Positions 1 through 48,385 of a stretch of 64,000 nt of DNA are shown piece by piece. The first letter of the stretch is position 1; each line of letters opens with the position of its first letter. Source of the stretch: Longimicrobiales bacterium (GTDB taxonomy: Bacteria; Gemmatimonadota; Gemmatimonadetes; Longimicrobiales; RSA9); the NCBI GenBank assembly GCA_035461765.1, contig DATHUY010000071.1:1-64000 (forward strand), given 5' to 3'. Position numbers and translations under genes: made by a program. The notes beneath the pieces are model-generated. The model was not told where the DNA came from and searched no databases. It saw nothing but the letters and a program-made list of their open reading frames with translations.

Positions 1-1167
1 CGGTTCCGGACGGCCCTGGCCACCGCGCAGATCGCGCTCTCGATGGCCCTGCTCGTGGCCGCCGGGCTGTTCATCCGCAGCCTGACCAACATCAACAGGA
101 TCGACCTTGGCCTCAACACCGAGAACCTGGCCACCTTCTCGATCTCGCCGGAGTTGAACGGCTACGCCCCGGAGCGGTCGCGGGCCCTGTTCGAGCGGCT
201 CGAGGACGAACTGGCGGCGATCCCCGGCGTCACGTCCGTCTCGGCGGCGATGGTGCCGCTGCTGGCCGGCAGCAACTGGGGGAGCGACGTCAGCGTGGAG
301 GGCTACAAGCCGCTGCCCGACCAGGGGGCGCACGGCCGGTTCAACAGCATCGGGCCCGGCTACTTTCGCACCACCGGCACGCCGCTCATCGCCGGGCGGG
401 AGTTCACGCGGGCGGACGCCCTGACCACTCCGAAGGTGGCGGTCGTCAACGAGGAGTTCGCGCGGCGCTACAACCTGGGGCGCGAGGCGGTCGGGAAGCG
501 GATGGGCGTGGGCGGCAGCGAGCTCGACATCGAGATCATCGGGCTGGTTCGCAACGCCAAGTACAGCGAGGTGAGGAACGAGGCGCTGCCGCTCTTCTTC
601 CGCCCGTACCGGCAGGACGCGGAGGTCGGCGAGCTGACCTTCTACGTCAGGTCGGGGACGGAGCCGTCGCGGGTGCTGGCGGCGATCCCCAAGGTCGTGG
701 CGCGGCTGGACCCGAACCTCCCGGTCGAGCGCCTGATGACGCTGGAAGAGCAGGCCCGCCAGAGCGTCTTCCTCGAGCGCTTCATGGGGGTCCTGTCGGC
801 CTCGTTCGCCGTGCTGGCCACGCTGCTCGCGGCCGTCGGCCTGTACGGCATGCTCGCCTACTCGGTGACGCAGCGCACCCGCGAGATCGGCCTGCGCATG
901 GCGCTGGGCGCGGCGCCGGCGACCCTGCGGGGGATGGTGCTGCGACAGGTGGCGTGGATGACCGCGATCGGCGGGGCGATCGGCCTGATGGTCGGCCTCG
1001 TGGTCGGCCGCGCGGCGCGGTCGCTGCTGTACGAGTTGGAGGGCTACGACCCGGCCGTGCTCGCGGCGTCGGCGATCGGCCTCGTGCTCGTCGCCCTGGC
1101 CGCCGGCATCATCCCGGCCCGGCGCGCCGCCGCCGTCGATCCCCTCACGGCGCTGCACTTCGAGTGA
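1..1167 (+). CDS. ABC transporter permease, MacB/ADOP type (C-terminal part, 5' end outside window)
   Basis: Inner-membrane permease of the MacB/FtsX family, probably the acidobacterial-type ADOP subfamily whose members are about 800 residues long. The frame is open from base 1, so the N-terminal part lies upstream; the 388 residues visible here end at a TGA at 1165. They begin inside a transmembrane helix preceded by the arginine-rich linker typical of ADOPs (RTALATAQIALS then an ALLVAAGLFIRSL helix). Next comes a MacB-like periplasmic core (about residues 50-255) with the motif VVNEEFARRY. The end is the FtsX domain with three helices, including the family-typical stretch RTREIGLRMALGA and the ending PARRAAAVDPLTALHFE. 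The substrate cannot be read from sequence, and no partner ATPase is in the window, which is usual for these orphan permeases. Confidence 0.88.
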   Translation, partial: RFRTALATAQIALSMALLVAAGLFIRSLTNINRIDLGLNTENLATFSISPELNGYAPERSRALFERLEDELAAIPGVTSVSAAMVPLLAGSNWGSDVSVEGYKPLPDQGAHGRFNSIGPGYFRTTGTPLIAGREFTRADALTTPKVAVVNEEFARRYNLGREAVGKRMGVGGSELDIEIIGLVRNAKYSEVRNEALPLFFRPYRQDAEVGELTFYVRSGTEPSRVLAAIPKVVARLDPNLPVERLMTLEEQARQSVFLERFMGVLSASFAVLATLLAAVGLYGMLAYSVTQRTREIGLRMALGAAPATLRGMVLRQVAWMTAIGGAIGLMVGLVVGRAARSLLYELEGYDPAVLAASAIGLVLVALAAGIIPARRAAAVDPLTALHFE

Positions 1168-6317: not shown

Positions 6318-6410
6318 TAACGAAAACGGGAGCGGGATCGTGTCCGGGATCGGGATCGGGAAAACCCGAACACGTACACGAACACGATCCCGCTCCCGGG
6401 TTCGTACTAG
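6314..6410. repeat. Long palindromic element between convergent genes, likely bidirectional terminator
   Basis: Perfect 17-bp arms at 6327-6343 and 6382-6398 (CGGGAGCGGGATCGTGT and its complement). They extend outward with one bulge and two mismatches to CTAGTA at each end, so the stop codons of both ahcY and the carbon-nitrogen hydrolase lie inside the palindrome. The inside is made of repeated words (GGGATC and ACACG). It belongs to the same word family as the element at 10915-11056. Confidence 0.65.
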
Positions 6411-10911: not shown

Positions 10912-10914
10912 ACT

Positions 10915-11056
10915 AAATCGGGAGCGGGAGCGGGCTCGTGTCCGGTACCGGGATCGGGACCGCGTCTGCAGGGGTGAGGGCCGGCGACACCTGACCCCCC
11001 GCTCGTCCGAACCCGATTCCCCCTCCCGAACACGATCCCACTCCCGCTCCCGATTT
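10915..11056. repeat. Long palindromic element between convergent genes
   Basis: Arms of 31 bp at 10915-10945 and 11026-11056 match at 28 positions (AAATCGGGAGCGGGAG and its complement begin and end it). The loop of 80 nt is GC-rich. It fills the gap between two convergent genes and shares the words CGGGAGCGGG and TCGTGTCCGG with the element at 6314-6410. A role as bidirectional terminator or REP-like repeat is likely. Confidence 0.65.
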
Positions 11057-11064
11057 CGTCGCAG

Positions 11065-36777: not shown

Positions 36778-36841
36778 GTCGTCGGCTGCCCGTCGGCTGG
36801 GTCGTCGGCTGCCCGTCGGCTGGCCGTCGGCTGGCCGTCGG
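36778..36841. repeat. Short tandem repeat in intergenic region
   Basis: A 23-bp unit (GTCGTCGGCTGCCCGTCGGC plus TGG) occurs twice in tandem at 36778-36823, followed by further copies of an 11-bp part of it (CCGTCGGCTGG). It lies between two divergent genes and leads straight into the left arm of the palindrome at 36837. Confidence 0.7.
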
Positions 36842-36962
36842 ACGCGGAACCCCTTATTCGTTATGGCCGCTTCCGACATGACTTTGCCCCCGAACCCGCC
36901 TTGCCGCCGGGACATTTGAATGACCATACCGGCCGTAATGCATAAGGGGTTCCGCGTCCGAC
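36837..36962. repeat. Palindromic element spanning the start of the ABC ATPase gene
   Basis: Arms of 32 bp at 36837-36868 and 36931-36962 match at 29 positions; the first 21 are perfect (GTCGGACGCGGAACCCCTTA then T). The right arm lies inside codons 4-15 of the ATPase gene starting at 36920, and the 62-nt loop holds the upstream region of that start. Confidence 0.7.
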
Positions 36963-37615
36963 TGCGGGGCGTCACCCGGGCCTACGCCGACGGCGCCACG
37001 CGCCACCGGGTGCTGACGGGGATCGATCTGGATGTGGAGCCCGGCGAGATGGTGGCGCTCCTCGGCCCGAGCGGGTCCGGTAAGTCCACCCTTCTCAACA
37101 TCATAGCCGGACTCGACGCACCGGATGACGGGACCGTGGAAGTCGGCGGTCAGGACCTCGGCCGTATGACGGAGCGCGGACGCACCCTGCTGCGGCGCCA
37201 GGAGATCGGCTTCGTCTTCCAGTTCTTCAACCTGATCCCGACACTCACCGCGCTGGAAAACGTGCTGCTTCCGTTGGAGCTGACCGGCCGGAAGGACGGA
37301 GCGGCCGCGCGGGCGCTCCTCGAGCGGGTGGGTCTGGCGGATCGGGCGCGTGCGTTTCCGGAGGAGCTGAGCGGCGGCGAGCAGCAACGCGTCGCGATCG
37401 CTCGCGCGCTCGCTCACGAGCCGAAGCTGCTGCTGGCGGATGAGCCGACCGGCAACCTCGACAGCGCGACGGGCGCGCGCGTGCTCGACCTGCTCACCGG
37501 CCTCGTCAGCGAGCGCGGTACCGCCATGGTGATTGCCACACACAGTCGCGAGGTGGTCGAGCGGGCGGACCGTGTGCTCACACTGCACGATGGCGCGATC
37601 GTGAGCAGCGCGTGA
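36920..37615 (+). CDS. ABC transporter ATP-binding protein (LolD/MacB/AttE type)
   Basis: 231-residue ATPase of the lipoprotein-release/MacB group. Walker [11 protein letters not shown]-loop [14 protein letters not shown], signature [14 protein letters not shown], Walker [14 protein letters not shown] and H-loop [10 protein letters not shown] are complete. The ATG at 36920 has no good ribosome site; ATG 36938 is an alternative. Codons 4-15 are encoded by the right arm of a palindromic repeat, so the first residues ([14 protein letters not shown]) may be repeat-derived. GTGA overlap with the permease gene shows translational coupling. With the next two genes it makes an AttEFGH-like system. 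Confidence 0.92.
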
Positions 37616-46345: not shown

Positions 46346-46399
46346 GCTGCTGTCCCTGCCCGGGTGTGTGTGCGGCGCTTCTGGGAAGGATGGAACGGC

Positions 46400-46657
46400 G
46401 GTGTCAGGTTGTCATGGGCAATGGGCAGAGGCAGGGGCATGTGGAAGGCGCACGCACACGTTTACGGGCACGGGCAGAGGCAGCCAACCTTCCCTCTCGT
46501 GAGTCACCTTCCCCGACTACTGCCGGGGCAGGGGCGCTGCGCGGAGGACGGTTGTACGGGCAGGATGTTCGACAGTGCCCGTGCCTCTGCCCGTAAACGT
46601 GTGCGTGCGCCTTCCACATGCCCGTGCACGTTCCCACGCCCATGACAACCTGACACC
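46400..46657. repeat. Compound long palindrome
   Basis: Two perfect pairs of arms are nested. The outer 19 bp are 46400-46418 and 46639-46657 (GGTGTCAGGTTGTCATGGG and complement). The inner 36 bp are 46435-46470 and 46588-46623 (begins GGGCATGTGGAAGGCGCACG). Next to the inner arms the words CGGGCA and GAGGCA appear in swapped order on the two sides. The loop is about 117 nt. Confidence 0.85.
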
Positions 46658-46810
46658 ATCCGTCCCAGGCACGGCCCTCACGGCAGGTCCCGGCCGACAT
46701 GGCGCACGGCCACCTCCCTGACGTAGGGATTCTCCCCACACAACCTTCCTCCTCTTCCCCACGCGATTTTCCCTGCATCACCCGACAACCGACCGCCCCC
46801 TGAAACCGCA

Positions 46811-47305: not shown

Positions 47306-48385
47306 ATGTTGAGAATGGTGAAGTTTGCGGGGATGGGCACGGCGGCAGTCGTCGTGATCGCGGGCGCGACGCTCGTGGCACGCGGTGGCAATGCCGCAGA
47401 CAACACGATCCCGGTACGTGAGGCCCCGTCGATCCGCGGCGAGGAAGTGGCGGTGCTGACGGCGGCGCCGAACGTGCCGGCACCGATCACGCGCACGTAT
47501 GCAACGAAGGTGATCGTCGAGCTGGAGGCGGTCGAGCGCACGATGCGCCTGTCGGACGGAGTGGATTACACGTTCTGGACGTTCGGCGGCACTGTGCCGG
47601 GCTCGTTCATTCGCGTTCGCGAGGGTGACCTGGTCGAGTTCCGGATGAAGAACCACGAGACCAGCACGGTCGCGCACAACATCGACCTGCACGCAGTGAC
47701 GGGGCCGGGCGGCGGCGCGAAGGCGACGCTGACGGCGCCGGGTCACGAGTCGACGTTCTCGTTCACAGCGCTCAATCCGGGCCTGTACGTCTACCACTGC
47801 GCGACGGCGCCGGTCGGCATTCACATCGCGAACGGCATGTATGGCCTGATCCTGGTGGAGCCGAAGGAGGGTCTGCCGCCGGTCGATCGTGAGTTCTACG
47901 TGATGCAGAGCGAGTTCTACACGAAGGGTGCGCATGGTGAGAAGGGTCTGCAGCCGTTCGACATGGCGAAGGCCGTCTCGGAGAACCCGGACTATGTGGT
48001 GTTCAATGGCTCGGTCGGCGCGCTGCTCGGCGACAACCAGCTGCACGCGAATACGGGCGAGACGATCCGTCTCTTCGTTGGTAACGGCGGCCCGAACCTG
48101 GTGAGCTCGTTCCACGTGATCGGCGAGATCTTCGACAACGTCTACACCGAGGGTGGAACGCAGGTCGCACAGAAGAACGTGCAGACTACTCTCGTGCCGG
48201 CAGGCGGCTCTGCGATCGTGGAGTTCCGCGCCGAAGTGCCGGGCGAGCTGGTGCTCGTCGACCACTCGATCTTCCGCGCATTCAACAAGGGCGCGCTCGG
48301 CATGATCGAGATCAGCGGTGCAGACAACACGGTGGTGTTCGAGCAGCAGGGCATGAACCAGCCGTCCTCACGGTCGGCCCAGTAG
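47306..48385 (+). CDS. nirK: Copper-containing nitrite reductase, class II (AniA-like)
   Basis: 359 residues. Periplasmic enzyme that reduces nitrite to nitric oxide with two cupredoxin domains. ATG 47306 with GGAGA ahead gives a signal peptide (about 1-31). All copper ligands and catalytic residues are present: type 1 His124, Cys165, His173, Met178; type 2 His129, His164, His320; catalytic Asp127 and His270. The loop [14 protein letters not shown] between Cys165 and Met178 is short and matches the class II NirK form (as in AniA). Downstream nirV and a SCO-type copper protein complete the locus. No nor or nos genes are in the window. Confidence 0.96.

Follow-up and report, generated by a model that had tools for sequence, protein, structure and literature searches.

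The stretch of DNA analyzed here, hereafter the window, comprises 64,000 nt of a Gemmatimonadota MAG (G000; 4.68 Mb in 171 contigs, 99% complete). Within it, a gene coding for an ABC-class ATPase (PF09818; 44636..46345, plus strand) and a gene coding for an Rrf2-type regulator (PF02082; 46843..47265, plus strand) are separated by the 497-bp gap of the original prediction, which is bounded by the ATPase stop (46345) and the Rrf2 start (46843) and houses a large palindrome. Further downstream lie the gene for a multicopper oxidase of the nitrite reductase-like type (Cu-oxidase_2/3; 47309..48385, plus strand) and SUMF1-like (FGE-sulfatase) and SCO1 (SCO1-SenC) genes, the region that the original prediction named the nir locus. 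The ATPase gene is outside the palindromic element and, given that the stretch beginning at 46723 is conserved in the same-genus genome G001 (SH-MAG3), the element sits just upstream of a conserved Rrf2 leader.

The fold-back with two perfect arm pairs that had been proposed for positions 46400-46657 is indeed present. Alignment of its copies places the limits of the whole element, which has no assigned strand, at approximately 46395..46662 (268 bp). Its outer arms (46400..46419, plus strand, and 46638..46657, minus strand) are 100% complementary over 20 nt, instead of the 19 given previously, and carry the common terminus of the family, GGTGTCAGGTTGTCATGGGC. The inner arms (46435..46470, plus strand, and 46588..46623, minus strand) are 100% complementary over the expected 36 nt, the left one containing the near-invariant core of the family, CATGTGGAAGGCGCACGCACACGTTTA. 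The swapped modules were also found beside the core: toward the loop, the left arm has CGGGCA, CGGGCA and GAGGCA (46465..46482, plus strand) and the right one, read in reverse complement, CGGGCA, GAGGCA and CGGGCA (46576-46593), with an overlapping third pair of 13 nt (46470-46482 and 46582-46594) representing the module-swapped register. The loop region (46483..46575, no strand assigned) corresponds to a part that is itself palindromic in longer, 335-bp copies. Mononucleotide shuffling (300 rounds) gave longest perfect arms of 9 nt on average and never above 16 nt, and the predicted RNA fold reaches a minimum free energy of -195.5 kcal/mol on the plus strand (z -14.4, with 0 of 200 shuffles as low) and of -195.8 kcal/mol on the minus strand (z -15.2). 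No Rfam family scores above its gathering score anywhere in the 64-kb window, palindrome included, and the two palindrome ends are the sole matches of the terminal 20-mer in the 64 kb when up to 3 mismatches are allowed (0.01 expected).

The original prediction proposed a search for further copies in the same genome, the absence of which was to count against it, and the family was found to occupy 14 places. The search returned 55 rows at E ≤10, of which those above 0.01 were dropped and those at the same place merged, leaving contigs C71 (the window), C140 (two places), C150 (two), C112, C146, C54 (two), C51, C168, C167, C1 and C4. Twelve of these 14 places are palindromic, and a single arm is kept at C1 and C4. 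The copies fall into a length class of about 250-269 bp, the short subfamily to which the window element belongs together with those of C140, C150 and C112 and, more distantly, that of C146, and another of about 334-340 bp (C54, C51, C168 and C167). Beyond G000, the distribution of the family is narrow. Among 99 genomes searched, G000 included, it was identified only in G000 and G001, and a scan of public genomes for a 22-nt core yielded five stretches, all from Gemmatimonadetes bacterium SH-MAG3. With up to 3 mismatches, the 20-mer of the ends occurs 22 times in G000 and 10 times in G001, against 0 for a reversed control pattern; G015 has two matches to the end motif, each with 3 mismatches. 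All genomes are drafts, nearly all of them MAGs, in which contig mis-joins at repeats are possible. Positions 1-582 of C54 and 13461-14040 of C167 are alike at 95.7% across element and flanks, a likeness that may be due to strain variants, duplication or an assembly effect.

Comparison with G001 reveals several places at which the palindrome is present in one genome and absent from the other. The place corresponding to that of the window copy is found in G001 contig C25, where no palindrome stands between the end of the ATPase gene and Rrf2; a second G001 contig, C354, stops at the same point in an unrelated tandem array, so that the assembly there is not simple. This array (CGCTACGGTTGGGCGATTTCCCGCGCC...; L148, 1-260) lies at the contig end and adjoins the ATPase gene. 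Both C150 copies are likewise missing from the matching G001 contig, C203, with 135 bp in G001 versus 424 bp in G000 between the matched flanks of the second place, and flanks that align poorly with C203 at the first. On the other hand, the insertions at C146, C51 and both C54 places are common to the two genomes and have conserved flanks, and C140:4801 has a G001 counterpart with a conserved flank on one side. Four or five older insertions are thus shared and the window and C150 copies are restricted to G000, as expected of a mobile palindrome with both old and younger insertions. The earlier proposal of recent copying is upheld by the window copy, which is 98% identical to C140:19250 (89-94% to four others) and absent from the matching place in G001. 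No target-site duplication was visible by eye across the copies, the flanks of which have diverged.

The perfect arms had also been attributed to gene-conversion-like upkeep, an idea that finds some support in the core of the element and none in its modules. Alignment of 17 copies, of which 12 belong to G000 and five to G001, shows a core of 28 pairs that is almost invariant; seven of these pairs are changed somewhere once gaps are set aside, three on both sides and four on one side. Each two-sided change is confined to a single copy (C150:13812, G001:C180 or G001:C157) and gives another standard pair there, and the three observed compare with 0.08 expected by random placement (P 1.5e-5), a statistic computed on related copies in which the three changes lie in different copies and different pairs. 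Moreover, C51 and C54:182, both of them old places, are 98.5% identical in G000 while their G001 counterparts are only about 75% alike, which indicates later homogenization between copies. The hexamer modules beside the core, in contrast, are shuffled between arms and their pairing is not kept. Hence, the core seems to maintain pairing or to be subject to arm-to-arm copying, and the modules do not. The structured RNA that the original prediction considered possible gains no backing from Rfam, and RNAalifold reports no net covariation (term +0.91 kcal/mol, with two-sided change in three of 63 pairs) because the arms barely vary, and covariation was accordingly dropped as proof of RNA structure.

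The S23 gene enters the picture in G001 contig C77, where arms homologous to those of the window (62-137 and 622-704; 87% complementary over 77 nt) enclose an intact ORF of 144 codons (232-663), the end of which extends into the right arm. Its product is an S23 protein, matching PF05635 (23S_rRNA_IVP) with an E-value of 5e-19 and TIGR02436 (four helix bundle protein) with an E-value of 1e-16, and its nearest solved structure by sequence is PDB 2gsc (XCC0516; E 1e-6). This is the single S23-bearing copy seen for the arm family of the window. The window copy has neither an S23p ORF nor an S23 remnant in its loop, and tblastn with 49 S23 proteins detected no trace of S23 in the gene-less copies, the best chance matches (E ≥0.009) falling outside the elements; S23 may therefore have been gained by the palindrome, and not lost from it. 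The one S23 gene of G000 itself, at C39, is enclosed by other arms, composed of GCACGC units, and its G001 counterpart (C269) has an in-frame stop. Since those arms are different, a helper for the recent spread in G000 is not visible. In G001:C77 the S23 gene adjoins groEL, as does that of G002:C129, between different arms, which could reflect either arm replacement or the landing of S23 in a hairpin loop; in G000, a contig end interrupts groEL at the place matching G001:C77.

We extended the analysis to S23 loci in general. In a search of 200 genomes of the phylum, 105 were found to encode S23, with up to 13 genes per genome, and the best loci of this search and those of another S23 search were combined into a set of 51, for which the best inverted match between the 300-nt flanks was scored. 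Arms of at least 32 bits are present at 39 of the 51 loci, versus two of 180 intervals of the same size shifted inside those same loci and none of 102 shuffled flanks, and arms of at least 36 bits at 33 of the 51, versus none of the 180 shifted intervals; these controls are random intervals, not matched to small intergenic genes. In a background scan of the 64-kb window, 36 bits were attained at one of 419 positions. The remaining 12 loci lack strong arms. Most arms consist of arrays of 6-8-nt units, which differ from locus to locus. A second and more abundant family of palindromes, composed of CGGGAG/CGGGAT hexamers, is represented in the window at 6320-6405 and 10912-11059; with the former as query, 75 match rows were obtained in G000, 25 in G002 and six in G001, and one of the G002 matches (C129:19449-19515) is located immediately downstream of an S23 gene. 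As hexamer hairpins are common in G000, the association of S23 with arms could partly be a shared intergenic preference.

The same layout was identified on plasmids and in a second genus. A tblastn search of plasmids with the S23 protein gave 27 records at E ≤10, from which 12 Leptospira rows, with 26% coverage, E-values of about 2 and positions lying for the most part in RHS genes, were dropped as chance matches, and one place was studied in each of the other 15 (14 cyanobacterial and one from Gemmatirosa). Ten of these 15 loci have arms of at least 34 bits, versus four of 60 controls, a separation poorer than that obtained for the phylum. The S23 gene of Nostoc edaphicum pNe_5 has GGGAACA units ahead of its start and TGTTCCC units directly past its stop. 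Three of the plasmid genes are located in cas loci, between cas10 and a cmr3-type gene in a Picosynechococcus plasmid, with arms of just 26.8 bits, and between cas6 and cas4 in plasmids of Anabaena sp. 90 and Pseudanabaena. In the second genus, G005:C173 holds an S23 element whose arm turned up at 15 additional places of G005, at none of which was S23 detected by tblastn; these comprise gene-less palindromes at C94, C19 and 10.5 kb of C173, weak ones at C181 and C34, and otherwise single arms. An elaborate arrangement is seen in G004:C124 (L151), where two tandem S23 genes are separated by three gene-less hairpins, each of about 140 bp; the arms are of GGAGCA type throughout, and relA-like DNA (relA having been named by eye) lies alongside.

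Taken together, the dispersed copies with common ends, their presence and absence in the sister genome and the C77 S23 gene between the same arms, along with the occurrence of S23 within inverted arms at most of the sampled loci of the phylum and on cyanobacterial plasmids, lead us to interpret the window palindrome, with a probability of about 0.72 and from sequence comparison, as a mobile hairpin element in its gene-less, non-autonomous state, the version with a gene carrying S23 in its loop. In such an element, the S23 protein would recognize the folded arm, with its near-invariant core, in the form of RNA or extruded DNA and would promote the copying of the arm into new intergenic places, and the gene-less palindromes would spread by means of S23 made elsewhere. 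A hairpin inserted between co-directional genes would be transcribed and, by analogy with the 23S rRNA IVS, probably cut by RNase III, so that it might do little harm to its host. As to the copying itself, host replication or repair acting on the S23-bound hairpin is our guess. Retro-copying by a resident reverse transcriptase is unsupported, as no match to PF00078 (E ≤1e-4) was obtained in G000 or G001, with matches in four of the 13 genomes searched.

Several other explanations have to be weighed against a mobile hairpin element with S23 as its gene. The palindrome could be a hairpin mobile in its own right, with S23 as a distinct mobile gene that enters hairpin loops, as in 23S rRNA helices, which would agree with the lack of S23 remnants in gene-less copies, with the location of S23 beside groEL in two genera between different arms and with hairpins being more numerous than S23 genes. 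Such an insertion, however, should have left the inner sequence of the gene-less copies on both sides of the gene, which is not the case in the C77 loop, and the plasmid arms closely abut the S23 start and stop, making this a doubtful explanation, if one to be kept in mind. Common ends, dispersed copies and the gene-less state would also fit an ordinary MITE, which is the standard reading of such bacterial repeats; the element would then be a non-autonomous derivative of an IS with a DDE transposase, its outer 20-26 nt the TIRs and the C77 S23 gene a chance passenger. Yet the terminal 20-mer pairs inspected in G000 and G001 bracket nothing or S23, the sole transposase found between such ends is that of an IS3-type element nested in a copy (G001:C173), no target duplication is seen between the diverged flanks and the S23-in-arms layout recurs with unrelated arms, all of which renders a MITE improbable. 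The nested element (L093, 2250-3520), rejected as an IS partner, has two frames and interrupts a palindrome arm; its family was named by eye from these frames and the ends. The left flank of G001:C173 matches G000:C167 and its right flank G000:C140, the result of either a rearrangement between the genomes or a mis-join at the repeat.

Origin as a REP/BIME-type repeat moved by a RAYT is suggested by the two Y1 transposases encoded in G000 and by the other REP-like palindromes of this genome, but we rejected it as very improbable because both Y1 genes have flanking inverted repeats of their own (53 nt at 77% and 27 nt at 93%); in addition, neither Y1 locus contains GGTGTCAGG, and an element of 250-340 bp is far longer than a REP. 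The 27-nt repeat belongs to the second Y1 gene, at G000:C107:885-4199 (L043). Elsewhere in the window, an inverted pair at 36834-36965 (GCCGTCGGACGCGGAACCCC...) resembles by eye the repeat flanking the Y1 gene at G000:C107:99619 and is probably a RAYT-linked REP pair. Finally, the very strong fold and the position between co-directional genes might point to a structured RNA or terminator that has a fixed place in the Rrf2/nir leader and serves the host, an explanation hardly credible for an element that is absent at the matching place of the sister species, present at 13 other places and devoid of any Rfam match.

Insertions in rRNA are the main setting in which S23 genes are known. Should S23 normally live in mobile elements with inverted arms, this would explain its occurrence between unrelated operon genes, as in the three plasmid cas loci mentioned above, and would provide an origin for many large palindromes and heptamer repeat pairs. 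The question would then be how an element whose one small protein is not a known enzyme copies itself, for which the window copy and its partner in the sister genome offer a concrete starting point. More broadly, we tentatively propose, at somewhat less than even odds, that S23 is the sole gene of a widespread and overlooked class of mobile hairpins, found in at least two phyla and made of inverted arrays of 6-8-nt units, which can leave behind large families of gene-less palindromes and which move although they encode neither a transposase nor a reverse transcriptase. This class would also take in, as members or relics, the 23S rRNA IVS and the inverted heptamer repeats of Xanthomonas and cyanobacteria. 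Screening by title and start of abstract, in a collection without most subscription journals and bioRxiv, turned up, among the papers listed, none that connects S23/IVP genes located outside rRNA with inverted repeats on both sides of them; on this weak evidence, the link may be new.

Short, dispersed, palindromic and non-coding elements with fixed ends in intergenic positions are well known among MITEs such as Correia and RUP. These share the layout described here, with the difference that no parent transposase was found in G000 or G001 and that the gene-bearing relative encodes S23. REP and BIME sequences, associated with RAYT, are dispersed extragenic palindromes as well, but the window element is about ten times longer and is not linked to the Y1 genes of G000. 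Among proteins, PMC10053308 describes the Avd of diversity-generating retroelements as a homolog of PF05635, whereas G000 and G001 have no reverse transcriptase. In the portions consulted of the respective articles, PF05635 is termed functionally uncharacterized and its IVP domain is recorded in 16S and 23S insertions of CPR bacteria (PMC11270868) and, in 18 cases, in cas loci (PMC3936711), and PMC10910872 just expands the abbreviation IVP. Heptamer repeats, studied as G-quadruplex repeats, occur in Xanthomonas, often as inverted pairs between genes, and also in Nostoc, as described in PMC4692102; these arrays of units of about 7 nt are of the same style as the arms found around S23. The accessible text of that article and that of PMC4679880, on TAACTGA heptamers, make no mention of 23S, S23 or a helix bundle.

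The gene-bearing copy resembles the 23S rRNA IVS in that an ORF of the S23 family lies in the loop of a long stem formed by terminal inverted repeats, a stem also present in the window copy. IVSs without an ORF also exist. In Coxiella burnetii, the 23S rRNA IVS with its S23p ORF is described in PMC4990558 as a selfish element. The elements reported here differ from the 23S rRNA IVS in that the window copy lies between ABC-ATPase and Rrf2 genes, outside rRNA, and in that each genome harbors many dispersed copies, of about 250-340 bp, that are present or absent between sister genomes.
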